A stretch of DNA of 64,000 nt from Aphrocallistes beatrix. Lineage: Eukaryota; Porifera; Hexactinellida; Sceptrulophora; Aphrocallistidae. Below the pieces are notes generated by a model. It searched no databases. It was given only the letters and a program-made list of their open reading frames with translations, and was not told where the DNA came from. Within the stretch, counting starts at the first letter, position 1; each line of letters opens with the position of its first letter. Shown here piece after piece: positions 3,519 to 35,131 of the stretch. The DNA is taken from assembly GCA_963281255.1 (NCBI GenBank), contig OY725504.1:62001-126000 (forward strand). The letters run 5' to 3'. The position numbers were made by a program, and so were the translations under genes.

Positions 3519-5903
3519 TTACACGTACTCGTTAGGAACCGAAGTAATTCCCTGGAATGTGAGATGTGCGTTTGAGTCGGGAGGTGTGACTGCTTCGTAG
3601 TTTTCCTCTTTGATCTGCGTCACCGGCTTGTTGGGGCTGTGCGGGGGCGTGACGGATACGTATGGATCGGAAATCAGCCTCTCGGGGGGCTGCTTGCTGC
3701 TGGCGGAGGCAGAGGGGGGAGTGACTGGCATGTAATCGTCCTCTGAAAGTGTCCGCATGGCCCTGAGCTTGCGCTCCTTCAGCTCTATGGTCAGGTCTGG
3801 CTTGCTGGTGGGTGTCATCTCGGTGTAGGAGTCTTCCTTGGCCAGCTCAGACTTCTGGCCGGGGACAGGGGGCAGGGGAAGCGGCCGGTCGATCTGCTGG
3901 TACAGATTGTCTCCGTCCGCGTTGGCGTAGTCCCCGGTGTCTGGGGTCTGGAACTTGTCGTAGGACTGGCCCTGCGATCCCAGGTACTTGTCTGACAACC
4001 GACGCGCAAGAGAGGCATGCGCTTGAGAGTTGGACGTGCCGCTGGAGCTGAGAATGTCTCGGGAGCTCTGCCTCCTCTTCGAGCCCTTGTGCAGGAACAC
4101 GAACCCAGCCACCAACACCACGATCAGCACGATGCAGATGGTGGAGGCACAGCCGCAGCCCACCACGCCCACCACGGCGTAGATGATGGTGTCCACGGGG
4201 AGGGAGGAGCTGGCAGGAGGCGAGGGACCCCCCGGGCTGCTGGAGCTGACGTCAGCGGAAGAAGTGGCGACTGGCGGAGAGACGGAAGTGGTGGAAGTGG
4301 CGGAAGTGGTGGTGGTTAGTTGCATAAAGTTCTCGTCCAATATTTCCACCTCTGTGATGAGCAGACCGTCTGCGGTCATTAAGGGCAGTTCGATGTAGGC
4401 TAGCTGTACGGGGGGATCAGCGAGTGCGGTGTACTTGTACAGGCCTGGCACAACGGGATCGGGAATTGATTGGAAATCGAACTGACTCAGTTGTCCCTGA
4501 ATGTCCCTAGCTCCTCCAGTGGGGGGCAATGCTCCGTTCACAGTGTCCATCCAGTAATAGACTGATATGTTCGAGACAAGGTACTGTTGGTTGAAGAAGA
4601 GTCTCAACGCAGCTCTCCCCTCCTCCTGGAATCCCACCCACTGCTCTCTAGACGTATCAGGGTCTCCTCCTATTAATTAACACTCTCATTATTACCTTTC
4701 TATCTCGTTCCAGAGAAGTTATCATTTCAATTCCCTAACTTTCTCCCTATCACTCTGTAGTTGGGACAGGAATACAGTACCATTAAACGTATGCCCATTA
4801 TAACATCCTACATTCTCACCAATGATTCCGTCCGTCAGCACTCCTACGCCTCCGGTGTAGCTGCTGCCCTTGACTCCGGTGTAGCTGTTGTCATCGTAGA
4901 AGCTGCCGTTGAAGGTGAAGCTAGGTGTGAACATGTTGTACTGCAGGAGGGGGCTCTGGTTGATGGCAGGCGGCGGGCCAGTGATGGGGAGACGAACTCC
5001 AAAGAACTCCACTTGCAAACATACGTCCAGTGGATTGAGACTGTCGAAAGTTGGGCTCGTGGAGACAATCTGAATTTAGAGGTGTGAAATGAATGGGGCA
5101 CTAGGACTTTTTATGAATGAATAAGACGAGAAAATGGACTCCAGTCATTTGTTAAGAATTTGAATTCAGCATTCTTCTGAATTAAATGTTCATTTCAATC
5201 TCAATTATGAAGGCTACATATTTGCGTTACCATGAGAAGATAGGACGTAGGAGTTATCTCCTATCACCTGCACCATATCTACGGTCTGTGTTAGTTAGTT
5301 TAGGAACTTACTATAAACTGCACCACATCTCCGTCCATGCGTGGGAAGTTGAATCGGATTCTTGTGTTGCTGTCTGACAGTCCCATCCTCCTAAGGTTCA
5401 GGTTGCCGGAAGGGTCCAGGTAACTCGACACCGTGATTGGACTAAAGATAGGTTTATCTTTAAGTTATGCGGAACTCTTCTAGAAATGTTTTACAGAATA
5501 CTCACCTGAACTCTGTCCCCGCTTGTCCCACCCTCACCATCGTACGCGAGATCCTGGCCAGCTGAGAAGCAGATCTCTCGCACGCGTCCTCCGTCAAGTT
5601 GTTCTGAATCTCGATCGCGAATATCGCGTAATCTGGAACCGCTGGGGTGTCTACGTCAAGTGCGAATGTGGGCGTGGTGAACCCGGAGTTATTGAACAGT
5701 GGGAGTCTCCATTGGTCGGGTCCGCCGATGTAGGGAACCCCGTCAGTGTCAGCATTTTCTGTAGCCTCACTCGACAAGATAAGTTCGTCCGTCCGACCAG
5801 TATTCCCATTGATCTCGTCTCTGAGGATCCGAATCAGCATCTGGCCCCCCACTGGCTCCATGGCCAGCACAATTAGCAAGATTGTTGAGATTGTTATGTG
5901 CAT
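3519..5903 (-). CDS. Receptor A: DDR-like kinase-less receptor with tyrosine/TPP-rich tail
   Basis: Four exons (complement): 5506-5903, 5312-5441, 4820-5069, 3519-4669, giving 642 residues with consistent phases (2, 0, 1). Order: signal peptide (1-20), discoidin-type domain (about 20-195), DS-like domain with LTDGIIG and WVGFQEE motifs, Thr/Ser stalk, one membrane helix (about 418-450, ending in basic residues), and a cytoplasmic tail of about 190 residues. There is no kinase domain; a stop follows PNEYV. The tail has nine tyrosines, a polyproline PLPLPPVP motif, and three copies of an [D/E]xYxxVTPP pattern (DYMPVTPP, DPYVSVTPP, NYEAVTPP). Unlike its paralogues C to H it lacks both the first Cys before ILRD and the Cys of YGC. 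It is a near twin of receptor B. A docking-receptor role is inferred. Confidence 0.85.
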
Positions 5904-5930
5904 TTGGTTTGATTCTGCCTCTCCGATTGC

Positions 5931-5938
5931 TATTTATA
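5931..5938 (-). promoter_or_regulatory. TATA-like box of receptor A
   Basis: On the minus strand the sequence TATAAATA lies 28-35 bases upstream of the A start codon (5903). The same box sits at the same distance in receptor B. If it works, the 5' untranslated leader would be only a few bases long. Confidence 0.6.
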
Positions 5939-6481
5939 CGACCACGTCTTCGCCACAGATTCCACTCAGTTAGTCATTTAGTCCTATTTAGTCTCCATGC
6001 AATTCCTTTATCAGAGCGTCCGCCATACCAAACAGCTCAGCATTAAACGAAAAAGTGTGTTTACATTGCAAATTGAGAGTTAGTTTGTTAATACAGTATT
6101 GTTGTTTTTTCTCACAATATCAGATCCCAGAATATTAGAGCATTCCGTTTAATTTAATTGATTGGAACTAATGTTCAGTGATTAGTTCCTTATCAGCGAA
6201 TCAACCATAGAGATTTCTAAGCAATTCGATGATGGTAGTTGTTCAGAATAAGCAAATCCTACAACAAAAGAGTTGCTTTGAATGCTGTGGAGTTTTAAGA
6301 AATTAACTTTCAGACTGATTCACTTAGTTTTAATTCCACCCAACATTCCAGCGAATTTCTGTTTATTTGCTCGAAGCAAAGATTGTAAGTTACATTTAAT
6401 TCTTGATTGCATAGACATCACACATTCTTACACTGACACAACACTTAACTCTACTTGCAATCCACCACTTCACACCTCCAC

Positions 6482-9012
6482 TCACACGTACTCGTTAGGA
6501 ACCGAAGTCATTCCATGGAATGTGGGCTGTGCGTTTGAGTCGGGAGGTGTGACTGCTTCGTAGTTTTCCTCTTTGATCTGCGTCACCGGCTTGTTGGGGC
6601 TGTGCGGGGGTGTGACGGCTACGTATGGATCGGAAATCAGCCTCTCGGGGGGCTGCTTGCTGCTGGCGGAGGCAGAGGGGGGAGTGACTGGCATGTAATC
6701 GTCCTCTGAAAGCGTCCGCATGCTCCTGAGCTTGCGCTCCTTCAGCTCTATGGTCAGGTTGGGCGTCATCTCGATGTAGGAGTCCTCCTTGGCCAGGCCC
6801 GACTTCTGGCCGGGGACAGGGGGCAGGGGCAGCGGCCGGTCGATCTGCTGGTACAGATTGTCTCCGTCCGCGTTGGCGTAGTCCCCGGTGTCTGGGGTCT
6901 GGAACTTGTCGTAGGACGGGCCCTGCGAGCCCAGGTACTTGTCTGACAACCGACGCACGAGAGAGGTATGCGCTTGAGAGTTGGACGTGGCGCTGGAGCT
7001 GAGAATGTCTCGGGAGCTCCGCCTCCTCTTCGAGCTCCTGCGCAGGAACACGAACCCAGCCACCAACACCACGATCAGCACGATGCAGATGGTGGAGGCA
7101 CAGCCGCAGCCCACCACGCCCACCACGGCGTAGATGATGGTGTCCACGGGGAGGGAGGAGCTGGCAGGAGGCGGCCGGGGCGAGAGACCCCCAGGGCTGC
7201 TGGAGCTGACGTCAGTGAAAGAAGTGGCGACTGGCGGAGAGACAGAAGTGGTGGTGGTTAGTAGCATCAAGTCCTCGTCCATTATTTCCACCTCTGTGAT
7301 GAGCAGACCGTCTGCGGTCTGTAAGGGCAGTTCGATGTAGTCTAGCTGTACGGGGGAATCAGCGAGTGCGGTGTACTTGTACAGGCCTGGCACAACGGGA
7401 TCGGGAATTGAGAGGAAATCGAACTGACTCAGTTGTCCCTGAATGTTCCTAGCACCTCCAGTGGGGCCAAATGCTCCGTTCACAGTGTCCATCCAGTAAT
7501 AGACTGTTATGTCCAGGACAGGGTACTGTTGGTCGAAGAAGAGTCTCAACGCAGCTCTCCCCTCCTCCTGGAATCCCACCCACTGCTCTCTAGACGTATC
7601 AGGGTCTCCTCCTATTAATTAATAAATCACTCAGTCATCATTACTTTCTATCTTGTTTCAGAGAAGTTATCATTTCAATTCCCTAACTTTCTCCCTATCA
7701 CTCTGTAGTTGGGACAGGAATACCATTAAACGTATGCCCATTATAACATCCTACATTCTCACCAATGATTCCGTCCGTCAGCACTCCTACGCCTCCGGTG
7801 TAGCTGCTGCCCTTGACTCCGGTGTAGCTGTTGTCATCGTAGAAGCTGCCGTTGAAGGTGAAGCTAGGTGTGAACATGTTGTACTGCAGCAGAGGGCTCT
7901 GGTTGATGCGAGGCGGCGGGCCAGGGATGGGGAGACGAACTCCAAAGAACTCCACTTGCAGACATACGTCCAGTGGGTCGGGACTGTCGAAGGTTGGGCT
8001 CGTGGAGTCAATCTGAATATAGAGGTGTGAAATGAATGGGGCACTCGGACTTTTTATGAATGGATAAGACGAGAAAATGGACTCCAGTCATTTGTTACGA
8101 ATTTGAATTCAGCATTTTTCTGAATTAAATGTTCATTTCAATCTCAATTATGAAGGTAACATATTTGCGTTACCATGAGAAGATAGGACGTAGGAGTTAT
8201 CTCCTATCACCTGTACCACATCTACGGTCTGTGTTAGTTAGTTTAGGAACTTACTATAAACTGCACTACATCTCCGTCCATGCGTGGGAAGTTGAATCGG
8301 ATTCTTGTGTTGCTGTTTGACAGTCCCATCCTCCCAAGGTTCAGGTTGCCGGAAGGGTCCAGGTAACTCGATACCGTGATTGGACTAAAGATAGGTTTAT
8401 CTTTAAGTTATGCGGAACTCTTCTAGAAATGTTCAACATTTCCACCCCAGTTGTATTCGAAACTACCCTACTTTAAAATGTTTTATTTCCTCCCTAACGT
8501 GTATTCTGGGAAATCGAACTGAGGAATGCAAACATTTGCGTATTAACCTCACTCTCCTCGCATTGGAACTTACAATGAGCACAGCTCATGTTCGTGTTAC
8601 CTCAGAACACTCACCTGATTCCTGTCCCCGCTTGTCCCACCGTCACCATCGTACGCGAGATCCTGGCCAGCTGTGAAGCAGGTCTCTCGCACGCGTCCTC
8701 CGTCAAGTCGTTCTGAATCTCGATCGCGAATATCGCATAATCTGGAACCGCTGGGGTGTCTACGTCAAGTGCGAATGTGGGCGTGGTGAACCCGGAGTTA
8801 TTGAACAGTGGGAGTCTCCATTGGTCTGGTCCGCCGATGTAGGGAACCCCGTCAGTGTCAGCATTCCCCGTAGCCTCACTCGACAAGATAAGTTCGTCCG
8901 TCCGACCTGTATTCCCATTGATCTCGTCTCTGAGGATCCGAATCAGCATCTGGCCCCCCACTGGCTCCATGGCCAGCACAATTAGCAAGATTGTTGAGAT
9001 TGTTATGTGCAT
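6482..9012 (-). CDS. Receptor B: DDR-like kinase-less receptor, twin of A
   Basis: Exons (complement): 8615-9012, 8255-8384, 7763-8012, 6482-7611, giving 635 residues. Exons 1-3 have exactly the lengths of those in A (398, 130, 250). Signal peptide, discoidin domain, DS-like domain, short stalk, membrane helix and a tyrosine-rich tail follow in the same order. The tail keeps the polyproline motif and the three YxxVTPP copies (DYMPVTPP, DPYVAVTPP, NYEAVTPP) and ends NEYV. Small differences from A are a shorter Thr stretch before the helix and MTPN for MTPTSKPD in the tail. There is no kinase domain. Like A, it lacks the first and last Cys of the discoidin domain. Confidence 0.85.
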
Positions 9013-9039
9013 TTGATTTGATTCTGCCTCTCCGATTGC

Positions 9040-9659: not shown

Positions 9660-12600
9660 TTAGATAGCGACCTCTTCAATCTGAAACTTGCACATGTCCT
9701 CCAGCTCTCTCCTCACGTCCCCGAAACTCGGCCTGTCGTCCGGATTCAGGTCCGTGCAGCGGCCAATCAGCTCCCAGCCCTGCTGCGGCGCGTAGACCGG
9801 CTGCGCCAGCTTGACTCGGTCCTTCTTATTGGTCAGCACGTCCTGGATCAGCTCCTGGTCCGACAGACCATCGTACGGCTTCTCCTCGCACTTGTTGAAG
9901 ATCTCCCACAGCGTCACGCCGAACGACCAGACGTCAGACTTCACCGTGAACTTTCCATAGAAGCTCTCATTCGCCATCCACCTACCAACAAACGCATTTA
10001 CTCAAGCCATGATGAAGCCTGTGACTGTATTAATTAAGCATAGCACAGCAGCGTTGTAATAACTATACTGACTCCTCAGCACTCACACTCATAATACTCC
10101 ACTAGCTGCTATTGGATTCTAATGCACCTGTTTGACTCACCTGATGGGGAGGATGGCCCTCCCTGTGATCTTGATATACTCACTGCGGTACAGGTTCTGA
10201 GACATTCCAAAGTCTGCCACCTTGACAGTGTAGTTGCTACCGACCAGACAGTTCCTCGCGGAGAGGTCCCTGTGGATGTAGTTCCTGTCTGAGAGGTACT
10301 CCATGCCTGCAGCCACCTGCTGTCCCATGTACACCATGCAGTCCTCATTCACCTGCAAACACACATGATTCTAACACTACTGATACGTGATGAACTCATT
10401 ACCAAACCATGGATTTCAATTTACAGTTTCAATTTGGTCAATTTCTCCTTTATTCGTTCTGATTGAGTGGTTGCTACCTCTCACAGTGTTACAGCGTTAA
10501 TGTTGCTTTTCATACTAAGTGCACAGTTCTTAATTACTTGGTTAGTTAACCCGATTCGGACTAGGGATTTTGCTAACTCATTTCCGGTTAACCATTTTGG
10601 GCGGGGAAACCCTAAAAGCGTGGGGTCTATTCTATAAATAGAATAGACCCATGTGCAAAATCGGGATTTATTAACAAACACGTCTGAAGTTATGGAAGTG
10701 GAATGCCATGCATCCATGGTCCATTCCAACTTACCTCTTGCAGGCGCAGGTTAGCCCCGATGCTGTCCACGAAGTCGCAGTCCTTGAGGAACTGTGCCAT
10801 GTCCCCATTGACCATGTACTCCATGGCGATGAACCTGCCGCCCCCTGTCTCCTCCAGGCACATCCCCAGCAGCTTGATCACGTTGGGATGCTCCAGCCGT
10901 GCCATGAACTTCACTTCCTTGCTGAACTGCTCCTTCGTATCCTGCGACGCTCCCTTGGAGAGTTTCTTGATCGCGATGTCGATTCCTTTCCTTCCGGAGG
11001 GTCCCAGTCGCAGCTCCTTAGCTGAGTAGTTGATGAGCGTAGCCAGACATACCTCTCCGAAGTGCCCGTTGCCAAGGAAATCTTTCTAAATAATTATATC
11101 ATTTGTAAGAAGTTATTATGGAAATTATAGAACCAGCTGACCAATCAATTCATTCCGTTTCTCATCACCAGTTATTCTCATTCGTTATCTCACTGACCAA
11201 TCATCTCCATGCGTTATCTCACACTGCGTATAAATACAGAAATATTTCGTTAGTCTCTCAATGTTTTTTTTGTTCTTTCTCGATTTATTTTTCCTTTTTA
11301 AGGTAAGCCAACATTTGTTAGTACTCGATAATTGTCTGGAGATATATTGATAAATAGTTGTGAGCTATATTACTGGAGGATAAGTTACTACGTAAATATT
11401 CTGTTGATTCTATACCTTGAGGTATTATTAAGTTAGAATGTGTGTTATGCAGACAAGTCATCTCGTAAATATTAATCAACTTTTATTGATTACATGTTAG
11501 AAGTGATAGTGTAGTCAAATGTCCTAATATGATTGATTAGCACATATACAATGGAACACTAGACTACACAATATACGTACAACTAATTCCCAATGCAATC
11601 GACCGATTTACTCAAACTGATCTATTTCAGGATCAGATTGAGGAATTCAAATAATTCATTCAGATATTTGATTGGTTTAATCAAAAACCTGAAACCTGCT
11701 TTCGAATTAATTGTTGACCGAATAGGATTGTCCTACCCTATCAGGTGATGGGTTCTAGTTTGAATATTCTAGCTATCTCTATGACATCCTATAAGGATAC
11801 GTTATCTCGATGCATATCGTATTCACCTGCACAGAGTATCCTCTGCACTGAACTGTGTTTACAAGGCTAAGCTTGGTTTGAAGTGGGATCTCAGCAATGT
11901 GATATCAACTCATGCCCGAATTCAATCCTATCCAGTTACGCAGCACGTACTTATTAATGGAATCACTAGCTAGAGCAGGAATGACCTATTCAATTCCTAA
12001 AATTCTACTCAGACGGTAAAAAATATGCTAATTTACATTTTTTTAATCACATTTCTTTCAGTTTCTCCTAAACGCATTGTTTATTATCTGTTACTATACT
12101 AGTTGCACAGTTTAAGGTCACATTTCTGTTATATGATACTTCTCATTCTAAATTTCCCCGCCTTCCAGCTCAATGGAGTTATAAATCCCGCCTATTTGGT
12201 GGCATATTAACTACAAATTCTGGGCGGGAAAAATTCCCCCGCTTATTTGGTAATAAAAGAGAATTAAAGTCTTCGTCAACAGAATCATTCGTCGTTAACA
12301 GTTTAGTATTCTGTTCGGTTGCATTTAACTGGACTCACCTCGTTGACGTCGAGCCAGGTGAGCTCGAGCGGTCCCTCCTCCTTCAGTAGGAGCGCCGGCG
12401 TCTCGTAGAGACTGGAGATGGGCCGCAGAATGTTGCTGTACGCTTGGTCTTGGTCCAGAGGGGTAGAGGGGAGCGATAGGTCGAACTCTGTCTGCTCGTA
12501 CGTCTTATTCAACTTCTTCCCTTTCACTACGCTCGAGTAGATAGCATCTTTCTGCAAAATTGCGACATTCCAGTAATTTCAATTGAATCAATATGACACA

Positions 12601-13386
12601 ATATTATTAATCACATTTTACTGCGAACAATTGCCCCTTCAGACGTTGCAAGTCTTATGAAATATGGCATCCTCTCGCACAATAGTAACTCATTACTATT
12701 CAGAAGAGGTTAATGCACTAACAAATACGTCGTGAAGCTAGACTCACCGGAGCATACACGAGCTTGTAGAAGTCTTCGTTATCGGTGACCTCAGGGGACA
12801 TGGGCTCCTCCAATCCCGGATTGTCTGCCTCCATCGTTGACTCTGCCAGCTCCTGTTTGGTGAGAGGTTTCCCGCTCCCACTCCCACTCCCATTTCCGCT
12901 CCCGTCCACGCTCACTGACTCATAGCCTGCCTTGGACCCTCCGAGTTTGAGACCTTTCTTAGAGAACCTCTTCCCGGATCCGGACTCCGGGTCTGCCTCC
13001 CCGTAGAGGCGCCGGAAGCCCCCCAGCTTCCCCACGCAGGCCATGTCCCGCACGTGCTTGCCCCGGCTGCGCAGGTAGTAGAAGAAGATGACCAGCACGA
13101 TGACTGCCAGCACCAGCAGGATGATGCAGACGATCACGATGATGAGGCCTGCGATCAGGCTGTTGATGCCGGACTCCCCCGGCGTGGCCCGCGCAGTGGA
13201 GGGCGTAGTGTCTGTGGGAGTGTTGGTAGAGGAGGAGGTGTCCTCTGTCTGCCTGCTTCCTGTCGTTGTGTCTGCTATGGTGGTGGTTGTAGCTGTTGTC
13301 TGAGGTGTCGTAGTTCTAACTAATACAATCGGTGGCATAGTTGTGGTGGTTTCTAATGTCGGTGTTGATGCTACAGTTGTTGTTGG

Positions 13387-13417
<31 letters not shown>

Positions 13418-15226
13418 ACAGTTGTTGTGCTAGTAGGAGTTGAGGTGGTATTGGGAGGAGTGGTGGTGCTAGAAGTGGTTGTAAGGGGAGGAGTGGTGGA
13501 AGGAGTGGTGGTAGGAGATTCGCTGATAGTCGCGTTGGCATTCGTGAGTGCATTGATCGCGTCAACTCTCACAAACTCCACCTCTGAGAGGAGAATGTAG
13601 TCAGCCCCTGCATCGAATTCCATCGTAACCTTAACGTAGCTAGCTTGCGTTGGAGTATTTCTAGTGAAACTCTTCACTCTAACTTTTCCTTCCAGGCTGA
13701 ACACTTCCGGAGAATTGAACGAGAGTGTTCTCTCCTTGTGGTCAGTGAAGATGACGTTGACAGGTGCTGATACATTGTTACTGCTGTCTTCCCAGAAGAT
13801 CAGATTGACTCTGTCGAACTGCTGGGTGGTCTTTAGGAGAAAGAGAACTTCTATGCTCGAGGTGTTACTTCTCTTCCATCCGAGCCACTGAGCAGGAGAG
13901 CTCTCTGCATTCACTCCTGTGCACAAAAAGTATGAGATACATTCTCAAACAGGATTCTCGACCTGTTGTGTTGCTATTGTATCTCTTCACTAGTTACATA
14001 GTCTTATTGATTAACTGTATTGCAAACTTTTCTTTTTGTGGGGACACTATTCCCCATGACTCCCTGGATGAGAATTCATTTCCTTTAACGATTTTACAAA
14101 AACAAAGTTGTCAAGTGGGATACTGTCATAATTGTGAGATCCCAGCACTAAATAATTGCACTTCTTTCATGCAATCGAGTTTAAAACAACACAAGCTTAT
14201 TGCATGGACTATACTATGCACCATTTCATGTGCCCAACGAACTCCTAATAATATGCGTATACACGATGTACTCTTGTATAATGTACTTTGTTATATGAAA
14301 ATCAATACAAGCAAGTTCCATGGAACTTTAATTCTAGCAATGAATAATTGACTTGCAACAATGCTACGTATTCCTTAATGTTCAATTACCTACTGTCCCG
14401 TCCGTGAGTATTCCGGTTCCTCCTGACAGGTACCCGTCAGAAGTTATTCCGGTGTAGCTAGAGTCCGTGTACAAGTTCCCGTATGTGTCTGCAGAGGCCT
14501 GTACCAGGTTGTATTGGTGGAGAGGTCCTGTGTTCACTGAGGGAGCATCACTTCCTGACACTTCACACCCGTAGAACTCCACTCGCATACATACCTCATT
14601 CATCACAGTACTCAATAGATTATCTATGGTTAAGACCTAGAAACATATGAATAATACTGTGCAGCTTAAAATAATATTTGTTAAAGCACTGTTTAACAAA
14701 CCTCGAATCTGACTCCATCCACTCTGACTGGTTCGAAACTGAGTCTCGTAGTTCTCCCATTTGCAACAGTTCCTCCCAGGCCTTTCCAGTTATAATAAGG
14801 TACGCTGTTACCACCGTTTGTCCCTGCCTTGAATGGAACGCTGAATCCAGTATAAGCCTGATACACTTTGAGTTCTATCCCTATATTCCCTATAGCTGCT
14901 GTGCTGATGCAATTTGATCCAGCTGGTCCCTGCTGGATGTCCATGGCGGTTATCCAGTAGTTGGGGGAGTTCCTGTTTTGTAGTATGAACTCTATGTTCG
15001 GTCTTGTGAACGTTGTGGAACCTTGTTTTCTTATTATTAATGGATTTCTGCTGTCCAACAGAGGAAGTCCTGTTATGTAAGCTGGATCATCTCCCAGTCT
15101 GTCTCTTGTGAATGTGGTCTTCGTCGGGTCTACACTAATGACATCTCGCAGGATTGGAGTGTTGCATTGCTGTGCTGTAGCTGTATGTAACAACACGATG
15201 AGTGTTAATAATGCAAAATTCCTCAT
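9660..15226 (-). CDS. Receptor C: DDR-like receptor tyrosine kinase
   Basis: Seven exons (complement): 14702-15226, 14390-14636, 12748-13916, 12339-12551, 10735-11085, 10141-10352, 9660-9981, giving 1012 residues. Order: signal peptide, discoidin domain (CNTPILRD to VEFYGC), DS-like domain ([16 protein letters not shown]), long Thr-rich mucin-like stalk, membrane helix (about 505-535), juxtamembrane segment with Tyr sites (YSSV, YSNI, YETP), and kinase (about 719-1012). Kinase motifs are complete: GNGHFGEV loop, IAIKK lysine, KEVKF Glu helix, [20 protein letters not shown]. The pattern LYxxxY..GRAxLPIRWM and VCxRVExYGC closely follow vertebrate DDR1/DDR2. Intron 4 (11086-12338) is the largest of the gene, and I see no gene within it. 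Orthology to DDR needs a tree; the architecture is clear. Confidence 0.88.
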
Positions 15227-15599: not shown

Positions 15600-17605
15600 T
15601 TACACATAAATCCCAGTACTCCCCTCACTCACCTCAATCTGAGAGTAGTAGTGGTATTCCTCTGTGTCCATTCTTTCTCGTGTTTTGCTGGCAGATCCTG
15701 ACTCAGTTGTATCTAGTATGTGATAGTTACGTAGTTCCACTGATTTCATGGGTACATAGGTCCCCTCCTCCTCCTCCTCTCCTCCCTCCCTACTCAACTC
15801 TACTTTGCTCCTGTTCCATCCACAACAACAACAATAACAACAACAGATCGTGAAGATGAGTATTAGCATTAAGTTAAGACAAAGTGAGAAAGCCAGCCCT
15901 GCCCCCAAAGCAGTCAGTAGCACAGTCTGCTGACTGCAGCAGGTGCTAGTCAATGCTGTGGCAGAGCTGTGGAAGTGAGTGCTGGAGTGGGATGTGTTGG
16001 AGGTTGCATTGGGATAGAACAGTGTCCTATTGCTAGAGTGTTCTGTAGTCGATAGATTGGACATCGAATATTTTGTTGTGAAAGTGATATTATTGCTTAT
16101 GTGTGAGACGCTATGAGGTGATTGAGTTGTGTTTGTTGTAACATTATTCATAAGTGTCTGTGTTGTGTTTGTTGTTATTTGTGTCGTGGTTCCCTGTTCT
16201 GATGACGTCATGGTTCTTCGCGTGGTGTGAGGAGAGGTTGAGTTTAACATCGGAGTTGTGCTGTGAGTGAAGCTGGTATGCGTCGTTACGTTCTCTCCTG
16301 TCACGAGGTTAGTAGCGCTGCCTAGCACATCTCCTACTATCTGGATTTCTGTGATCAGAATGGTGTCGGAGTGTGTGCCATATTCTAAGGACAGTTCGAT
16401 GTAACTGACACCTGCCAAACTGTCTCGACTCAGAGCTAGCAGCTTCAATCGCTGAGTGACATTTGACACATCAGTGTTGTGGAGTGGAATGGTGCCATTG
16501 TTTTGATCTGAGATGCGAACTGTTCCTAACCCTGACACCTCGTCTTCCCAGTAGTAGAGGTTGATTCTGTTGATTTGTTGTCTCCTCTTGAAGAGGAAGA
16601 GAATATCCACTCTAACTGTCTCCTCTCTACCCCACCCCACCCACTCAACAGGAGTTCCAGCAGCGTCTCGACCTAATGACAGAACTCTTGATGTCAGCTC
16701 AACATCAGGTCATTTATTTATAGACTACTACCTACTGTCCCGTCCGTGAGTATTCCGGTTCCTCCTGACAGGTACCCGTCAGAAGTTAATCCGGTGTAGC
16801 TAGAGTCCGTGTACAAGTTCCCGTATGTGTCTGCAGAGGCCTGTACCAGGTTGTATTGGTGGAGAGGTCCTGTGTTCACTGAGGGAGCATCACTTCCTGA
16901 CACTTCACACCCGTAGAACTCCACTCGCATGCATACCTCATTCATCACAGTACTCGTGAGGGGATCTATGCTTAGGACCTATGGAACATAACCGTATTAT
17001 ATTCCAGTGGAAATGTGACATGATAAATCAGTGCATACCTTTATCCTTATTCCGTCACCTGCTACCGGTTGTAGACTGAACCTCACCACCCTCCCATTCC
17101 CCACACTGCCCCCTAGCTTCTTCAGATTGATGGTCGGGTTGCTGTTGGATCGGTCCCTCCCCTCCCTGAAAGGGGTGTCGATAGCCCAGTACCCTCCCCC
17201 CAGCCTCACCTCCACACTGATCTCCTCCACCACGGCCGAGCTGGTGCAGTCCGGCCCAGCCGGCCCCTGCTGGAAGTCCAGGGCCGTGATCCAGTAGAGC
17301 GGAGAGCCGCTGCTCCTCTCCTCCAGCAGGAGACTGGGCGTGGTGAACCCTGGGAGTCGGATGGTCAGCGGGGAGGAGCTGTTCAGGGTGGGGAGTCCCC
17401 TGATGAAGGCGGAGTCGCTCTCTCCCAAGTTCTCCAGTGTGTATCTGAGCTTGGAGCTGTCCTGAGCTATGACGTCACGCAGCAAGGGTGTGTAGCACTG
17501 CAGTGCTGCTGTGTTCGCGTAGACTGGGAGTGTCAATAGTAAGAGCACTGCCTTCAGAGCTCTCGTCTGGAGTGACCCGGTTGCAATCTCATTCCTAAGT
17601 GTCAT
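15600..17605 (-). CDS. Receptor D: DDR-like kinase-less receptor with short YxxM tail
   Basis: Three exons (complement): 17039-17605, 16732-16978, 15600-16672, giving 628 residues. Signal peptide (hydrophobic LLLLTLPVYA), discoidin domain (CYTPLLRD to EFYGC), DS-like domain (EWVGWGREE, INLYYWED), and a stalk very rich in Thr, Ser and NxT/S glycosylation sites. Then a membrane helix ending in a Cys cluster and a tail of about 75 residues. The tail contains TYVPM (YxxM, the PI3-kinase SH2 consensus), NYHIL, YYSQI and terminal IYV. There is no kinase. Exon 2 is almost identical to that of C and E although exons 1 and 3 are well diverged, which suggests gene conversion. The next gene downstream is C. 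Confidence 0.85.
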
Positions 17606-22959: not shown

Positions 22960-25900
22960 TCAAATGGCCACCTCGTACACACTGAACTCCGTCTCACTGC
23001 TCAGCTGGAGGTTCAGCTGGGAGAAGCTAGGCCTCTTGTCTGCATCCAGCAGCAGGCACTGGGACACGATGGACCAGATTGTGTCCGTGGCGTAGGTGGG
23101 TCTCGCCAGTCGCATCCTGTTCTCCTTGTTGTTCATGACGTCACGGATCAGGTCTTGGTCTGTCATGGAGTCGTAGGGACGGGACTCTCCCTTCACCATG
23201 ATCTCCCAGACCGTGACTCCGAACGAGTACACGTCCGACTTCACAGTGAAACGTCCGTAGAACGACTCTGTAGCCATCCACCTAGTCAACCGCATGGTAA
23301 CATACTTGTAGCAATGGAATGTAGCACCGTATGGGCTATCTCCTCACCTGATGGGGAGGATGGCCCTCCCTGTGATCTTGAAGTACTCACTGCTGTACAG
23401 GTTCTGAGACATTCCAAAGTCTGCCACCTTGACAGTGTAGTTGCTACCGACCAGACAGTTCCTTGCGGAGAGGTCCCTGTGGATGTAGTTCCTGTCTGAG
23501 AGGTACTCCATGCCTGCGGCCACTTGCTGTCCCATGTACACCATGCAGTCTTTGTTTACCTATCAACACGTGACTCTCAAAATATCTCATTTAAAATCAG
23601 GCTTGAGTTTATTCCTTTCTTAAACCATTCTTATGTAAAATGGCTCATTTTACTGTGTAAAAAGCATCCATTCTTTTGAACTCATTCAGTTCGTACAGCG
23701 ATACTTCGTATCACACATCTACACATACCTCTCCTCCTCTGAGGTTGGCCCCCTTCGTCTCCACGTACTGACACCCCTTCAGGAACTGAGCCATGTCTCC
23801 ATTCTCCATGTACTCCATCACGAGGAACCGGTCCTGTTCCTCCTCCAGACACACCCCCAGCAGTCTGATCACGCTAGAGTGGGACAGTCGAGCCATGAAC
23901 TTGATTTCCTTCCCGAACGCCTCCTTCGTCTCGGAAGAAGGGTCCGACATCAGTTTCTTGATTGCCACTTTCACACCTTGCTGTTTCGAGGTGCCGATGC
24001 CTAGGTCTTTGGGAGAGAATGTCGGGAGAGTTGCGAGCATAACTTCTCCGAACTGTCCGTTGCCCAGGAAATTCTCCTAAAAAGAATTTAAATTAATTAG
24101 TCCATTTGGAAAAATATTATATCCCAGGATTATTCAGGGGATTTTTGGATGAATCAGAGAGTATTGCATAAATGCATGGTTTAGATATTCTACTCGTTTA
24201 GTGATATTAAGAAAGTTGGTATATCCTGATCAGTGGGAGCTAAGCTCAGTGTTCGATCTGTCACATTTTATTTAGTTCCCCGTTATTTTAAGAGTTGTTT
24301 GTATGTAGTACTACGTATAAAGTCATGTTCAAGTGCTTCTTACCAAATCATATAGGATAGGCTTGACAGTGAGTTTTGCAACTAATAACCGTAGGTAGAT
24401 GAAGAATAGTGTTACGTAGAAGTGTGCTATTTTCAATTTTTCCCTCGTAACGTCTGATTATCGTATGCAGGGTGTCCTCACGCTGTACTCACCTCTCTAA
24501 CGTCGCCAGGAGAGAAGTTCCTGGGTCCCTCATCCTCTGTGAGGAGGGCGGGAGCCTCGTAGATGCTGGAGATCGGTAGGAAGCTGCTGAGAGAGTCGAA
24601 TGAGTCACGAGGGGGCAGTGCCTCCATTCCATCCCTCGGGGAGAGAGAGAGGTCGAACTGAGGCTCCTCGTAGATCTGGTCCACCTTCTTCTTGGGGGGT
24701 TTGGTCTTGGATGGTTTCTTCTGAACTGTCGCATACAGATCCTATGGTCAGGTTCTCTAATAGCTTACGGCTTAGGTTTTGTGTGACAATCGCAAAAAAA
24801 TAAAATTGAGATTGATAATAATGGGTTTAATAGGCTTCCCACGGATGTTAGATATATTATTCGATTGAAAAACTAGAGAGTAAGGGTAGGAATTCACTCG
24901 CACTCCCATACATAACTTTTCCGTTTTTTCGGACATATGTTGAAAGTAATGTCCCGCGAAAACGTCACAAAAAGTGGAATTGTCCCGCTTTTCTGTGTGT
25001 AGGACGATACAAATATACTATGTCCCGCTAAAATACTATTTATGTCCCGCTTTTTCTTTCTAGAAGTGGCACGTATGCTCCCCACATCTGTAAACAGTTT
25101 TTTTACGTTAATGCATTCTGCATTTTAGGATATTGCAACAACTTAAGCTCTAACTTTATGTGATTCCACATGTAAAACTTCGTAACTCATCGACCCTACG
25201 ACTCGTACGTATACTCACCGCGGGGCGTGCGTATATGTTGAGGTCCTCCCCCTTCTCGTACCACTCATTATCTTTAGACAGAGTCTCCTTGTTCTCCACT
25301 TCAGAGTAGATCTTGTCGTCATTATCGCCATCCATAGCAATGCTGGAGTACCCCTTCCTCCCCCTCGCCCCTTTGCTCACCTCCTCTGGATTCTCGTACT
25401 CGCGGTCGCCAGTATCCTGATTAATTGGGTCGTACAAGCCTAAACCGTTCTCGTCGTTCAGTTTGGAAGACCTGAACTCCTTCCTATGCACCACCTTCCC
25501 TTCGCTGGACTTCTGTCTCCTCCTCCTCACCAGCAGGAACGCCACTACCACGAGTACGGCCACTAGCACCACTAGGAAGATCAGCAACACAGCTAGAACC
25601 ACGCCTATGATGGTGCCAGTGAGAGGGGTGTTGGAACTTGGAACGAGAAGTGTTGGAGTTACAGGAGTTGTGGCGGATGTTGTACTGAATTGAGATGTTG
25701 GTGTTGGTGTTAGATTGATAGTGGGATTTGTCGTTGTTGTTGTTGTTACCATCATGCTAGGAGATGTGCTAGGTATTATTGTTGTTGTTGTTGTTATTGT
25801 TGCTGTGGTGCTTACACTAAAAGTTTGAGCGATACTTGTTCTCGAACTTGGAATTGTAAACCTGGAAGTGTCTAGTACAGGTCCCAGTAAATTACTCCCT

Positions 25901-27924
25901 TCAGAGTGTATGACTTCTATTTCTGTTATTGCTACTGAATTCGTTCCAATAAAGTTTACTCTCAGATACCCTGTAACGAATCCACTGTGTGAGTATATTC
26001 TTCTGTAGACAAGTCCGTCTGATTCTGTTGTCTCACTTAACCAACTAACAAATCCATCCTCTTCATAGAACTCTACTCCATCGAGAGTACCGTCCTGTGT
26101 CCAGTAGAATATGCTGATGTTGTAAACGAGTCTTCTAGTTGTTAATAGGATCAGTACTTCTGAACCAGACACATCTGGATTTGACCATCCCAGCCAGTCG
26201 ACAGAATCGGGAGCTGATGGCCTACTACCTGTGAAATTTGTATTATAATTTCAATGGTGCTCCTTTAGGGGGAACTATTTGCTATAGACAAGTTACATTT
26301 ATGCCAATCATTCATATTTTAACACCTTATTAGAAGGTAACACATAGAAGCTATCGCTCTGTTCATCAGCATTTTTATTCAATAAAAATGCTGATGAACA
26401 GAGCGATTATTATTTTTGATACTCCTATTTTCTCACCTATAACCCCGTCATTGAGTATCCCCTGTCCTCCAGACAAGTACCCCTGAGACACTACTCCTGT
26501 GTACTTAGAGTCAGAGTAGACAGTAGGCTCTACCAGGTTGTACTGGAGGAAGTCTGTGGGAGGAGGAGGTGTGGTAAGACTGCTAACAAGACATCCGTAT
26601 ATCTCAGTTCTCAGACACAGTCTTATCTGTCCAGGTCCTGCTGGATTGGTTGTAATTATCTAAATGTTAAAATGTAATATAACTTGAAAGAATTTTAAAA
26701 CTAATATTTTTAACTAACAAGAATGAATGTTTAACTATGTTGAGTTTTTTAAAATTTAATGTTTAATTGTGGCTTCTTCACTACTTTTGATTGATGGGCC
26801 ATAGATATCACGGAGACCATTTAAATAATTTATTAATATATGATTAACCTAAAGTCATGGGTTGTATAAAAAAGGATCTAAATCGGATTGAAACAGCAAA
26901 TATCTGCTATATTACACCACTTGCCATGTGTACACGTGTATTTTCTTAAAATATTACTTTTTCAATGTTTTCGCCCATAATTACAATCTGTGTTATTGAA
27001 AAAAGTAGCTTGATTAAATAGATTAATTTGGATCAAATTTACTATGTCATTCATTTTCAATATTGTAATATTACTAATAGAGTGGCTCAAAATTTATAAC
27101 TATATTACACTTCACTTCATACTTTGGAATTTTATGGTTAATTTTCCCGGAATGTTCGGAAACGTCACTTTTGAACTTAAAAGCATAGAACCGTAGCTAT
27201 GGAGTTACTAGCTGTTGGGAATCTCAGTAATTATTGGTTACCACCAAGAGCCTCCCGATAGACAAACTAAACTCAAACAGGCTTGCCAGACCTGTAGGTC
27301 CTCCGCAGGTCTGAGTTGGAGTGAGACGCACACTGGTTACCACTGCCAGCAGTCCCAAACGAGAAGTGATATACTTATGTCTTACTCTTAAGCCATGCAA
27401 TTATATATATTTTAGTAGTCACTAACTCGATATACGACAACATTCCCTCTTGTTGCAAGAAAGCTGAGTCTGATTATCCTCCCATTGTTAGGGTCTCCTA
27501 GTTCTGTTAGATTCAGGTAACCATTGCTATTGTCATATGTTGCACGTACATAGTGGTTGCTAGTCTCTGTTAGAGATGTCCCTATCCTAAACCTATCGAT
27601 CTCTATCACATCTCCATTTCCCTGACAAGATCCTACATCTCCAAACTGTAAGTCTATTGCAGTTATGTAGTAATCTTCTGAGTCTGATAACTTGAAAAAC
27701 GGATTGTTGAATACATTACTAGATCCCAAATGTCTAAGTTCCACAGCTTCTGATCCGTTCAAGAGAGGAACTATACTACCTCCCAACTGACTTAGGAAAT
27801 TAGTTCTCTTGCTAGTATCAGGATTCACGATGTCTCTAATGATCGATGTATTGCATTCTTGTGCTGATGACGTCACCACTAATCCCAACACAAACAACAA
27901 AATATATTCCGTAACTACTCTCAT
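22960..27924 (-). CDS. Receptor F: DDR-like receptor tyrosine kinase
   Basis: Seven exons (complement): 27427-27924, 26437-26659, 25219-26228, 24493-24741, 23729-24076, 23348-23559, 22960-23281, giving 953 residues. An in-frame ATG at 27942 would add six residues. I prefer 27924 because a TATA-like box at 27955-27960 then falls at the spacing seen in the other array genes. The ectodomain resembles G and H ([28 protein letters not shown]), whereas the kinase is nearly identical to E. The membrane helix is followed by an RRRRQK stop-transfer signal. Juxtamembrane tyrosines include LYDPIN, EYENPEE, IYSEVE and IYEEP. Kinase motifs [24 protein letters not shown] and PIRWMATES are intact. Intron 1 is long (26660-27426), intron 2 holds a perfect palindrome, and intron 3 a transposon. 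Confidence 0.87.
24907..25077. mobile_element. CATAC/GTATG-ended MITE, diverged copy, in receptor F intron 3
   Basis: Starts catacataac and ends acgtatg. The interior has repeated gtcccgc blocks shared with the copies at 37880, 42130 and 58742. Flanking 6-mers (cactcc and ctcccc) agree at only four of six positions, so this is an older insertion. Confidence 0.6.
26353..26407. repeat. Perfect palindrome, 27-base arms with a 1-base centre
   Basis: Arms 26353-26379 and 26381-26407 are exact reverse complements around c at 26380. It lies in intron 2 of receptor F, about 30 bases downstream of the exon 2 donor, and would fold into a perfect hairpin in the pre-mRNA. Confidence 0.9.
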
Positions 27925-28625: not shown

Positions 28626-30827
28626 TCATAGCAACTTTTTCTCAGTGGGAGAAGTCTCCTCTGTATCTCCTACATCCTCGTTTCCTCTCCCTCTCCTTCC
28701 CATGCACAGACACGTGAGTATGACTATCGCCGTGAGAATGAAGTTGATCACAATCGATATGAACAGACACACTACCAGCACGTACAGATCTGATCCGCTG
28801 TAGGATATTCGGGGCAGGGAATAGACAATGAGGGGAGTTATGGTTCTAGAGGTGTTAGGGGTGCTTGTCCTACTGGTGCTGACACCAGGACTGCTACTGC
28901 TGCTGGGACCTGGATTGGTGGTGCTACTTGTACTAGCACTGGAGATGCTGCTACTGGAACTAACACTAGTGCTAGTTCCAGTACTGATGGTGCTGGTCAT
29001 GGTCATCTCTATGAATACAATTCAATGGCATATTATCATATTCCATATACAGTCGACTCCGCTTAATAGGGTCACATCGGTCAGGGCGTATTTTGACCCG
29101 ATTAAGCGGAGAATCCTATTAACCGAAAATATTTTTGTATTAGCCTCTATGTGTGAGAGCTATTCCGGTCCTGCCAAAAGTGACCCGATTAAGCTGCTGA
29201 CCCGATTAAACAGTGACCCTATTAAGCGGAGTCGACTGTATAAGTATGTGTTGTGATTCCACATTCTGACATAATCGCTATCATGATGGTTCAACTTGAG
29301 CCATATTTTCGGTCAAGTACCCTTATACTTACCTGGTACTGGTGTGGTAGAACTCGTCCTAGTGGTTACTGAGCTCGTGGAGGAGTGGGTAGTCCCTAGC
29401 ACAAGGTTGTCAGGTCCTAATAATGACTTCTCACCGGAATACACAGCCACCTCTGTCAGCATCACAGCCTCATCTCTCTCTATGCTCACTCTCAGGAACC
29501 ACGAATTCACGCCTGTGTGAGTGAATACTTGCTTGTTCACATTCCTAACTACGTTCTCTGTTGTCTGGGTCCATCCGCTAATCACTCCTTTCTCGTTCCA
29601 TATCTCCACCCCACTGAACACACCGTCCTCCGTCCTGTAGTAGATGCTGATGTTGAGTATCAAGTATTTGGCTCCGAATAGGAAGATGATTTCTGAGTTG
29701 GAGATGTTTGGGTTGGACCATCCTAACCATCCTCCCGTTCCACCTAACACAGAAGAGTTTATAAGGACAGAGGTTCTCCAGTTGTTTTATCATATCGGGA
29801 TCCTCTATAGAATGGAAATTATATCCTATATCCTTCCGATCAAAATGTTACTCGAACGTTCCGGAACCTAATTTCAGAAATATTCCAAACTAGACCCTTC
29901 CCAATGGAACTCTTTCGACCCAGCCTCTAAGTATGACTCCCTTTTCCTTGCAATAATACGCCTAAAGTTATAATCACCCAGAGAGGTGTTTTGACCAACA
30001 CATTAAGTTATAGCTATGGGATGGACCCTCATCGACTGCGTATTTCTCACCTATGATCCCATCATTGAGTATCCCCTGTCCCCCGGACAAGTACCCCTGG
30101 GACAGGGCTCCTGTGTACTTCGCATCTGAGTAGACGGTAGGTTCCACCAGGTTGTACTGGAGGAGGTCTCTGTAGCTAGGAGCTGGGTGGCTAGTGCTGC
30201 ATCCGTATATCTCCACTCTCAGACACAGCTTCACTGCTCGGTTCCTCGTTGCTTGAGGATCTGTTCTAGCTATCTACACACATCAACACAGTTAGAATGC
30301 TGCTAATTCTCAGAGATAGAGTTACTCACTTGAAACGACACTATCCTTCCTCGTGCGCCCTGTATCTGTAAGCGGACAACCCTGCCGTTATTCGGATCTC
30401 CGAATTTATTGAGTTTAATAATATCCCTCATTGGCCCTTCCATATACGGCCCCTGTACCCTGGGGTTCATTTCCGGGTCATCGTGATCTCCTATGGTGAA
30501 CATCTTTATCTCAGTCACGTTGCCGTTCTGTTCACAGTCCCCCACACTCCCGAACTGAAGATCTATCGCCGTCACCCAGTACCTCTGATCCAGTGTGAAC
30601 ACGGGGTGGTTGAAGGGTTCACTCCCCTTGTGTCTCAGTTCCAGAGCGACGGACTGGTCGATTACTGGCACAACCTTGCCTCTCACAGTCCCCAGTCCAT
30701 TCTCAAAGTTTATCCTGTCTCCCTCGTTCGTAGCCACTACATCCCTAACGATAGCAGTATTGCACTCTGCGAAAGCTAGACTTAGCTCTGCTACCAGCAC
30801 ACATAGAGTCAGTATTAACCTCATCAT
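28626..30827 (-). CDS. Receptor G: DDR-like kinase-less receptor, very short tail
   Basis: Four exons (complement): 30330-30827, 30051-30273, 29333-29743, 28626-29008, giving 504 residues. Signal peptide, discoidin domain (CNTAIVRD to VEIYGC), DS-like domain (GILNDGIIG, WLGWSNPNIS, YYRTEDGVFSG), Ser/Thr stalk, and a membrane helix (LYVLVVCLFISIVINFIL). The basic tail of about 30 residues contains no tyrosine. There is no kinase. Intron 3 (29009-29332) contains a Tc1/mariner-like MITE. Sister gene of H by segmental duplication. It could be a decoy, ligand-presenting or co-receptor form; that is inference. Confidence 0.83.
29050..29238. mobile_element. Tc1/mariner-like MITE with TA target duplication, in receptor G intron 3
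   Basis: Terminal inverted repeats CAGTCGACTCCGCTTAATAG and its inverse, flanked by TA (29048-29049 and 29239-29240). Length is 189 bases. A second copy with the same ends lies at 63515-63702. No transposase is present. Confidence 0.85.
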
Positions 30828-30855
30828 CTCAATTGACAGAGAACTGGCACGGACT

Positions 30856-30861
30856 CTTATA
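30856..30861 (-). promoter_or_regulatory. TATA-like box of receptor G
   Basis: TATAAG on the minus strand lies about 30 bases upstream of the G start. The same motif and context occur in H (35169-35174), consistent with their duplication. Confidence 0.5.
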
Positions 30862-31345: not shown

Positions 31346-31570
31346 GCCAGTACGTCATGGGTCCAGGGATCCAAAGGAGCCATGAACCCACGAAATCCTG
31401 TAGGCGGATTGAGACATGAATCCGCCATGAATTATGGCGATTTATTTGTAGATGAACGTATAAGAATCCCAAATTTACTTCTGGGAGTCAAGCTCCCAGA
31501 CCTCCCTTATAGTCGATCGCTCACTCTTGGCCTCCGAAGAATCCCGTCCTTGGCCTTCCCATCCCCACAG

Positions 31571-32455: not shown

Positions 32456-32785
32456 CACAGTTTCACCAAACTGCAGTAGCCGTGTTCATCTGGAACACAG
32501 GGGACTCCATTCCACCGTTCGCTCACCTCATTGGACAGAGTTCGGATAAAAAATGTGGTCAGGTTGAAACTAGTTTATATGAGACACTTCAGTCTAATTT
32601 GTCCGTTTTCAACTTTGCTAATCTATTTGTAACCTTTTAGTTAATTCTGTCATTCACAGCATAAGATTCATTGTCATCACACTACAATACGTATCATATA
32701 GGGATACGGTTTAGAATTAGGGGTAAATACAATATATTGAATACCAAGTTAAATTCTTAATTTATAAGATTATCTGTTGTGGCAG

Positions 32786-35131
32786 TCATACTTTGGTTAC
32801 TTTAATTAGGGGACTCTCCTCTGTAGCTTCAAAATCCTTGTTCCCTCTCCCTCTCCCTCTCCTTACCACGTACAGACACGTGAGCATGACCATCGCCGTG
32901 AGAATGAGGTTGATAGTTATTGATATGGACAGACACACTACCAGCACGTACAGATCTGATGCTCTCGAGGTGTTGACAAGGGTGCTTGTCCCATCGTCAC
33001 TGACACCAGAGCTACTAATTGGGGCTGAAGCTGGATCTGCTTGTGGAGCTGGGGCAGGTGGTGGGGGTTGGTCAGAACCAGATGAAGCCGTTGAAGCTGT
33101 TGAAGCCGTTGAAGCTGTTGAAGCTGTTGAAGCCGTTGAAGCTGTTGAAGCTGTTGATGCCGTTGATGCCGTTGAAGCTGTTGAAGCCGTTGAAGCTGTT
33201 GAAGCAGTTGAAGCTGTTGAAGCTGTTGAAGCCGTTGAAGCCGTTGAAGCCGTTGAAGCTGTTGAAGCCGTTGAAGCTGTTGATGCTGTTGATGCAGGTG
33301 GTGGGGGTGGTGGGGGTGGGCCAGGTGGTGGGGGTGGTGGGGGTGGGCCAGGTGGTCGGGGTCGGGGTGGGCCAGGTGGTCGGGGTCGGGGTGGGCCAGG
33401 TGGTCGGGGTCGGGGTGGACCAGGTGGTGGGGGTGGGGGTGGAGCTGTTGATGCCGTTGAAGCTGTTGATGCTGTTGATGCAGGTGGTGGGGGTGGTGGG
33501 GGTGGGCCAGGTGGTCGGGGTCGGGGTGGGCCAGGTGGTCGGGGTCGGGGTGGACCAGGTGGTGGGGGTGGGGGTGGAGCTGTTGATGCCGTTGAAGCTG
33601 TTGATGCCGTTGAAGCTGTTGAAGCAGGTGGACTAGGTGGTGGGGGTGGACCAGGGGGTCGGGGTCGACCAGGTGGTCGGGGTGGACCAGGGGGTCGGGG
33701 TGGGGGTGGAGCTGTTGATGCTGTTGAAGCTGTTGAAGCTGTTGAAGCTGTTGAAGCTGTTGATGCTGTTGATGCTGTTGATGCTGTTGAAGCTGTTGAA
33801 GCTGTTGATGCTGTTGAAGCTGTTGATGCTGTTGAAGCTGTTGATGCTGTTGAAGCTGTTGAAGCTGTTGAAGCTGTTGAAACTGTTGAAGCTGTTGATG
33901 CTGTTGATGCAGGTGGTGGGGGTGGTGGGGGTGGTGGGGGTGGACCAGGTGGTCGGGGTGGACCAGGTGGTCGGGGTGGGCCAGGGGGTCGGGGTGGACC
34001 AGGTGGTGGGTGTTGGGCTGGTGGTGGGGGTGGACCAGCAACTGTTGAAGCTGTTGATGCAGGTGGAGCTGTTGATGCTGGTGGAGAGGGTGGAGATGGT
34101 GGTGCAGGTGGTGGGGGTTGACCAGGTGGTGGGGGTGGAGATGGTGGTGCAGGTGGAGCTGTTGATGCTGGTGGAGCTGTTGATGCTGGTGGAGAGGGTG
34201 GAGATGGTGGTGCAGGTGGTGGGGGTGGAGATGGTGGTGCAGGTGGAGCTCGAGCTGGACGTCGACGTGGAGGTGACCCTAATGAAAGTATAGTGCAACC
34301 CACAGTTCTAAAATATGTGATCGTGTCTGGCAGGAATACCGTACATTTACTCCTCACCTATTATCCCATCATTGAGTATCCCCTGTCCCCCGGACAAGTA
34401 CCCCTGGGACAGGGCTCCTGTGTACTTCGCATCTGAGTAGACGGTAGGTTCCACCAGGTTGTACTGGAGGAGATCTCTGTAGCTAGGAGCTGGGTGGCTA
34501 GTGCTGCATCCGTATATCTCCACTCTCAGACACAGCTTCACTGCTCGGTTTCTCGTTGCTTGAGGATCTGTTCTAGCTATCTACACACATCAACACAGTT
34601 AGAATGCTGCTAATTCTCAGAGATAGAGTTACTCACTTGAAACGACACTATCCTTCCTCGTGCGCCCTGTATCTGTAAGCGGACAACCCTGCCGTTATTC
34701 GGATCTCCGAATTTATTGAGTTTAATAATATCCCTCATTGGCCCTTCCATATACGGCCCCTGTACCCTGGGGTTCATTTCCGGGTCATCGTGATCTCCTA
34801 TGGTGAACATCTTTATCCCAGTTACGTTGCCGTTCTGTTCACAGTCCCCCACACTCCCGAACTGAAGATCTATCGCCGTCACCCAGTACCTCTGACCCAG
34901 TGTGAACACGGGGTGGTTGAAGGGTTCACTCCCCTTGTGTCTCAGTTCCAGAGCGACGGGCTGTTCGATTACTGGCACAACCTTGCCTCTCACAGTCCCC
35001 AGTCCGTTCTCAAAGTTTATCCTGTCTCCCTCGTTCGTAGCCACTACATCCCTAACGATAGCAGTATTGCACTCTCCGCTAGCTAGACTCAGTTCTGCTA
35101 TCAGCACAAATAGAGTCAGTATTAACCTCAT
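32786..35131 (-). CDS. Receptor H: discoidin receptor with a Pro and Ser-Thr-Ala repeat stalk, kinase-less
   Basis: Three exons (complement): 34637-35131, 34358-34580, 32786-34278, giving 736 residues. An upstream ATG at 35203 is less likely, since G starts at the homologous MRLILTL. Signal peptide and discoidin domain are near-identical to G. The exon coding for the second half of the DS-like domain in G has no counterpart. Instead exon 3 opens directly into about 400 residues of PPGPPRP-type and (STA)n repeats, then a membrane helix (LYVLVVCLSISITINLIL) and a short basic tail (RRGRGRGNKDF) ending in LIKVTKV. Phase across the exon 2/3 junction is correct. The stalk would be long, extended and open to O-glycosylation. 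Confidence 0.8.
33073..34255 (-). repeat. Coding minisatellite in receptor H exon 3
   Basis: Runs of a 9-base unit (gttgaagct and variants on the plus strand, read as Ser-Thr-Ala on the minus strand) alternate with G-rich blocks read as PPPPGPPRP. Copy arrangement is patchy, with repeated mixed modules at 33298-33480 and 33481-33600. Such arrays usually vary in length between alleles. Confidence 0.9.

Follow-up and report, generated by a model that had tools for sequence, protein, structure and literature searches.

Eight tandem DDR-like receptor genes, three with and five without a kinase, in a hexactinellid sponge

A 64,000-nucleotide stretch of the genome of the sponge Aphrocallistes beatrix (contig OY725504.1, positions 62,001 to 126,000; G000:C18:62001-126000 in our numbering), hereafter the window, contains eight adjacent genes encoding receptors that resemble the discoidin domain receptors (DDRs). 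All eight lie on the minus strand between window positions 3519 and 35131; three of them (C, E and F) carry a tyrosine kinase and five (A, B, D, G and H) do not. The structure of this family is real and, within a known receptor class, unusual; what is new is the wide spread of kinase-less members, the recombination of modules between copies, and the mostly purifying selection on the kinase-less copies. We consider, with moderate confidence, that the array is best read as a tandem expansion of DDR genes accompanied by module exchange, which would have produced receptor tyrosine kinases (RTKs) together with kinase-less co-receptors that offer phosphotyrosine docking sites. The eight-gene array, with kinases confined to C, E and F, had been predicted from the sequence, and gene models together with matches in Pfam and the PDB confirm it; because the similarity extends to Pfam, the PDB and other contigs, it cannot be attributed to chance.

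Gene models were assembled from open frames and GT-AG sites, with splice sites chosen by eye and by score, without transcripts. All eight are complete with respect to GT-AG borders, in frame, and closed by a single terminal stop. The kinase genes have seven exons each: C (1012 residues; window 9660..15226; exons 15226-14702, 14636-14390, 13916-12748, 12551-12339, 11085-10735, 10352-10141 and 9981-9660), E (997 residues; 18089..22009; exons 22009-21491, 21425-21179, 20936-19762, 19633-19463, 19192-18845, 18688-18477 and 18410-18089), and F (953 residues; 22960..27924; exons 27924-27427, 26659-26437, 26228-25219, 24741-24493, 24076-23729, 23559-23348 and 23281-22960). Among the kinase-less genes, four exons make up A (642 residues, ending in NEYV; 3519..5903; exons 5903-5506, 5441-5312, 5069-4820 and 4669-3519), its recent duplicate B (635 residues; 6482..9012; exons 9012-8615, 8384-8255, 8012-7763 and 7611-6482), and G (504 residues; 28626..30827; exons 30827-30330, 30273-30051, 29743-29333 and 29008-28626); three make up D (628 residues; 15600..17605; exons 17605-17039, 16978-16732 and 16672-15600) and H (736 residues; 32786..35131; exons 35131-34637, 34580-34358 and 34278-32786). 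In H, the DS-like exon is replaced by a 1493-base exon with low-complexity P/S/T/A repeats that encodes a proline-rich and (STA)n stalk; the stalk is specified by a 9-base repeat array (window 33000-34300) whose remaining frames are open as well. The linker exon has the lengths originally reported, i.e., 250 bases in A and B, 247 in C, D and E, and 223 in F, G and H.

In C, E and F, the kinase is unbroken, is spread over three exons, and retains the glycine loop, the lysine of VAIKK or IAIKK, HRDLSARN and DFG, such that these three alone have the intact catalytic residues of a DDR-subfamily tyrosine kinase; A, B, D, G and H are not RTKs because they have no kinase. PF07714 is matched at E-values of 2.3e-73 by C and 1.7e-74 by F, and the kinase of E, itself outside the Pfam scan, is 98% identical to that of F. 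In the PDB, the E kinase matches DDR2 at 236 bits and DDR1 chains at 224-229, followed by ROS, TrkB and TrkA at about 172-173; the top row, an EGFR construct, owes its 246.9 bits to two kinase copies scoring 122 bits apiece. In a tree of 34 rows (the three window kinases, human DDR2 and EGFR, and 29 of 30 sampled kinase loci of this genome, in which 151 kinase matches were counted, Ser/Thr kinases included), C, E and F join human DDR2 with support of 94/79. Adjoining this group (98/96) is the kinase of locus L018, whose best PDB matches are MuSK (292 bits), TrkB (275) and ROR1 (263). With only two human rows, the tree is a stronger argument against placement with the sampled kinases of this genome than against placement with every human family, and it is the PDB scores rather than the tree that cover the other human kinase families. 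The proposed DDR affiliation, put at risk in part by this grouping and by the margin of DDR2 over ROS and Trk (236 vs. 173 bits), was not refuted.

A genome-wide search with the E kinase, in which the best 133 of 242 candidates were scored and yielded 138 matches, recovered 92-99% identity only to exons of E and F and to one exon of C, the remaining C exons being 53-60% identical; the top-scoring match beyond the window among those candidates was L018, at 37%. Of the short kinase exons that matched the E kinase at 36-49%, the two at 48-49% were fetched, and neither showed signs of a DDR-like gene: one (C16:191670) is nearer to the Eph-like kinases of this genome, and the other (C1:2126388) is about equally near EGFR, L010 and DDR2 (73, 72 and 72 bits), with no DDR-like ectodomain flanking it over the 3.5 kb of one strand that was read. 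Elsewhere in the genome, L009, L016 and L021 (C1) are long single-exon receptor kinases that appear Eph-like by eye (Fn3, kinase, SAM), and L011, L012 and L014 cluster with L009 in the tree; L024, L026, L030 and L036 (C15) form a kinase array with very short branches, and L024, the one read, has an ectodomain that is SRCR-like by eye.

The second extracellular domain is the DS-like domain of DDRs, and, as had been claimed, it can be aligned in seven genes, H having lost most of it. Of five genes scanned with PF21114, C and D exceed the cut-off and F (0.0012), A (0.06) and G (0.089) fall below it; the same profile run over the whole genome returned no match anywhere, controls included. A whole-genome PF00754 search found 31 F5/8C places and did not list the window genes; the four places read by eye (L001, L006, L007 and L008) belong to other proteins. 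Genes with F5/8 type C domains are clustered at G000:C9:3356846-3820771 and C2:134211-144448, and those four loci are unlike the DDR-like genes. The E ectodomain itself found no match at E<=0.001 among 7993 scored candidates of a protein database.

In sequence, the N-terminal domain hardly resembles DDR outside its last strand. A predicted model of low confidence (mean pLDDT 49) nevertheless matches discoidin domains, with that of DDR2 first in Foldseek, which points to a discoidin (F5/8 type C) fold; this partial check left the predicted fold standing (a model of exon 1 alone from AlphaFold, with pLDDT 46, was discarded). The cysteine spacing of DDR is kept in six of the eight genes, and the two DS-domain cysteines, which presumably pair to join the N and C termini of the domain, are present in six of the eight, A and B having neither. 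The motifs by which the array had been likened to vertebrate DDRs hold only in part: VCxRVExYGC is exact in C, D and E and is replaced by LCLR[TV]EIYGC in F, G and H and by VCLQVEFFGV in A and B; LTDG[TI][VI]G is exact in A-E, with LNDG in F, G and H; and WxGW is exact in C-G, with WVGF in A and B and no counterpart in H.

The family extends well beyond the array. The genome searched is compact, amounting to 100.5 Mb in 28 contigs, and because the protein searches (with ectodomains from C, F, A, C13 and C20) scored only the best candidates, the counts, which are of exons and not of verified genes, are lower bounds. The linker exon occurs at E<=0.001 in at least 21 places (eight in the window, five on C6, four on C13, and one each on C1, C4, C16 and C20), with five weaker matches on C13 (E 0.001-0.08), and the ectodomain occurs in at least 13 places beyond the window, on six contigs. 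Ten of these 13 (five on C6, two on C13, and those on C1, C4 and C16) were read until their last open frame ended, that on C20 was read in part, and C13 4222378 and 4254802 were unread; none of the ten contains a kinase, and one has a frame break. A DDR kinase is therefore known at 3 of at least 21 linker-exon places, and the predicted mixture of full kinases and kinase-less partners not only stands but reaches past a single cluster. A kinase lying about 1 kb from one C13 gene was set aside as a Ser/Thr kinase by its HRDMKCEN motif (by eye).

A second cluster (G000:C6:5048551-5077254) comprises four kinase-less genes, three open and one whose frame is broken in the DS-like exon, plus one fragment, and combines ectodomains of the F type with tails of the D type (YVPM...HYYSKIENEYV, against YVPM...HYYSQIE in D). 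The region G000:C13:4170829-4254802, where the weaker matches fall between 4174870 and 4234618, contains kinase-less genes that share the linker exon but are more diverged, and single diverged members with tyrosine-bearing tails are found at C4:6046000-6049000 (L072, with YVDM) and C6:3853500-3856500 (L073).

Comparisons among these copies indicate that their modules have been recombined, with duplicates exchanging whole modules. E reads as a C-type ectodomain on an F-type kinase: its synonymous divergence (dS) from C is 0.04 in the discoidin part, 0.02 in the DS-like part and 0.75 in the kinase, and that from F is 0.05 in the kinase and near saturation in the ectodomain (2.7-2.9). The fact that C and E are alike in ectodomain and yet so distant in kinase led us to reject both a pseudogene and a two-allele reading. 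At the DNA level, exon 2 of C, D and E is 94.5-96.5% identical, and C matches E or F at about 94-95% in exon 6 and at 69-74% in exons 5 and 7; because such near-identical stretches end near exon borders, short conversion tracts are likely. The C6 genes are 82-87% identical to the F-type ectodomain in exon 1, and the tail of C6a aligns to that of D with a score of 103 (shuffle maximum 57). Since the C6 genes (F-type ectodomain) and D (C-type) have one tail, and E and F one kinase, two ectodomain types are found on two output modules, and an ectodomain tree of 15 rows requires the kinase to have been gained or lost at least twice.

Ratios of nonsynonymous to synonymous substitution (dN/dS) place the kinase-less copies mostly under purifying selection and, for this reason, they are not debris. 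Between F and four C6 copies the ratio in exon 1 is 0.12-0.17, and between F and three of them the ratio in the DS-like domain is 0.18-0.20. Among the C6 copies it is 0.25-0.62 in exon 1, 0.62-0.81 in the DS-like domain, and 0.20-0.45 from the transmembrane (TM) segment through the tail (three copies); within the window, kinase comparisons give 0.19-0.38, A/B DS1 0.28 and G/H DS1 0.53.

A plausible mechanism can be built on these modules. C, E and F would bind an extracellular ligand through the discoidin/DS-like ectodomain and signal through their own kinase; A, B, D and the C6 genes would join their complexes as substrates whose tails, once phosphorylated, could offer SH2-docking tyrosines (YxxM, YxN, YxxV/I); and G and H might act as decoys, anchors or spacers. 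With boundaries set by eye, the tails carry nine tyrosines each in A and B, six in D, and none in G (23 residues) and H (25 residues), compared with 8-9 in the juxtamembrane of the kinase receptors, and YxxM- and YxN-type motifs are present. We infer the docking role from the tail common to D and C6 and from the known preferences of SH2 domains for tyrosine motifs. A more ambitious version, which we regard as unlikely, is a combinatorial system in which three DDR kinases of one cluster serve up to about 18 or more kinase-less receptors of the same two-domain ectodomain, module exchange within and between clusters creating new pairings of ectodomain and output (kinase, docking tail or none), for non-collagen, multi-ligand or self-recognition built from a matrix receptor.

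Several observations weigh against a DDR expansion with docking co-receptors. The density of tyrosine motifs in A, B and D is not above that of shuffled tails at the 5% level (128, 160 and 166 of 2000 shuffles were as rich), and the A/B tail is unlike that of D and C6. The dN/dS ratios of A/B from stalk to tail (0.70), of the A/B DS-like domain (1.46) and of C/E DS1 (1.03) indicate little or no purifying selection, on few changes (22-23 each for the last two). As for descent, a profile comparison of the N-terminal domain minus its last strand detects no similarity to DDR (probability 0.4%), VIA gives 12.6 for DDR and 12.3 for neuropilin, which does not separate them (its rows exclude no family), and the second cysteine follows the ITxxxxQ strand, which it precedes in DDR. 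In all eight window genes, moreover, the equivalents of two collagen-contacting residues of DDR2 are missing, as judged from motifs without residue-level structural alignment.

The last point bears on the ligand. Trp52 and Arg105 contact collagen in DDR2, according to excerpts of PMC4332414, and the N-terminal domains of all eight genes lack both a Trp ahead of position 48 and an Arg beyond the QG-like motif. The comparison of the collagen trench covers these two residues (Thr56, Asp69, Glu113 and Asn175 were not placed) and, because both are absent, binding to collagen via the known site is not supported, and the GVMGFO site of fibrillar collagen is unlikely to be the ligand. That exon 1 has diverged at a low dN/dS between F and the C6 genes argues for a conserved ligand over an arms race, although some recent pairs are near 1; the data so far give no support to a hypervariable recognition role.

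Such a role underlies one alternative, that the cluster is a repertoire for self/non-self or microbe recognition diversified via gene conversion and module exchange. We consider this quite improbable: the mosaics of modules, the near-identical exons in otherwise diverged genes, the dispersal of ectodomain copies over the genome, the dN/dS of the DS-like domain among C6 copies (0.62-0.81) and of two window comparisons (1.03-1.46), and the presence of NACHT and SRCR genes elsewhere in the window would all fit, but exon 1 has a dN/dS of 0.12-0.36 in nine of ten comparisons of F and the C6 copies (variation data come from a single assembly, hence without polymorphism). Somewhat easier to entertain, if still doubtful, is that the kinase-less members serve as decoys or dominant-negative partners, binding ligand or kinase receptors and damping signalling in the way that kinase-less DDR1 isoforms might. 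The tyrosine-free tails of G and H are what this would predict, whereas the 6-9 tyrosines in the tails of A, B and D, the recurrence of the D-type tail on another contig under a different ectodomain, and the low TM-tail ratios of the C6 copies are not.

If the kinase-less genes were instead fading by-products of tandem duplication under neutral birth and death, the frame-broken copy and the fragment on C6 and the repeat exon that H carries where its DS-like domain would be could be expected, but all eight window models and three genes on C6 keep an uninterrupted frame, F and the kinase-less copies mostly differ at low dN/dS, and one tail is common to separate contigs, making this very unlikely. 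To the idea that the receptors are not DDRs by descent, i.e., that an unrelated discoidin-like ectodomain was fused to a tyrosine kinase and converged on DDR, we attach hardly any probability, even with most of the N-terminal domain lacking detectable similarity to DDR. The preferred reading remains a DDR expansion with docking co-receptors.

The array is adjoined by an inositol polyphosphate 5-phosphatase-like gene (Exo_endo_phos2; window 35407-37648, plus strand) and, on its opposite flank, by a phosphoserine phosphatase-like gene (about 1460-2711, plus strand; by eye). Farther along the plus strand are an NLR-like NACHT-domain gene with an open frame of 1133 residues (53174-56572) and an exon with an SRCR domain (61685-62041). 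NACHT genes, together with the SRCR-kinase and Eph-like genes recognised by eye, would by themselves make a sponge the likely source of this genome.

DDR orthologues are present in sponges and ctenophores, as stated in excerpts of PMC6485061, and the survey of PMC5395295 detected DDR1 and 2 in no species it covered other than human and fly. A literature search, mostly outside subscription journals and without preprints, found in titles and abstract openings no reported DDR gene cluster with kinase-less members. If the DDR ectodomain has indeed spread far beyond the kinase, with ectodomains and outputs recombined, the origin of collagen sensing becomes testable, including whether collagen was the first ligand at all, and C, E and F provide natural chimeras in which evolution has swapped ectodomain and kinase.

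DDRs are known as collagen sensors encoded by one or a few genes per animal. The array resembles DDR1 and DDR2 in its order of discoidin domain, DS-like domain, stalk, TM segment, long tyrosine-rich juxtamembrane and DDR-type kinase, in its activation loop (NLYxxxY..GRAxLPIRWM), and in its discoidin cysteine spacing (C3-x7-C4); it differs in an N-terminal domain that is hardly similar in sequence and has no Trp52 or Arg105, in the position of the second cysteine relative to the ITxxxxQ strand, and in having kinase-less members and eight genes in tandem. Kinase-active and kinase-inactive members also coexist in the Eph family, which likewise mixes the two within one RTK family, although there the kinase domain is present and dead, whereas here it is absent. 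Paired immune receptors of the CD300A/C type offer a likeness, drawn largely from general knowledge of them, in joining related ectodomains to differing signalling modules, but in the array the module is a tyrosine kinase or else a docking tail, and an arms race is not clearly indicated. DDR1d and DDR1e are isoforms whose kinase is wholly or partly missing according to excerpts of PMC4332414: they too place a DDR ectodomain in the membrane without a working kinase, but as isoforms of one gene, whereas in the sponge array the kinase-less receptors are separate genes with tails of their own.

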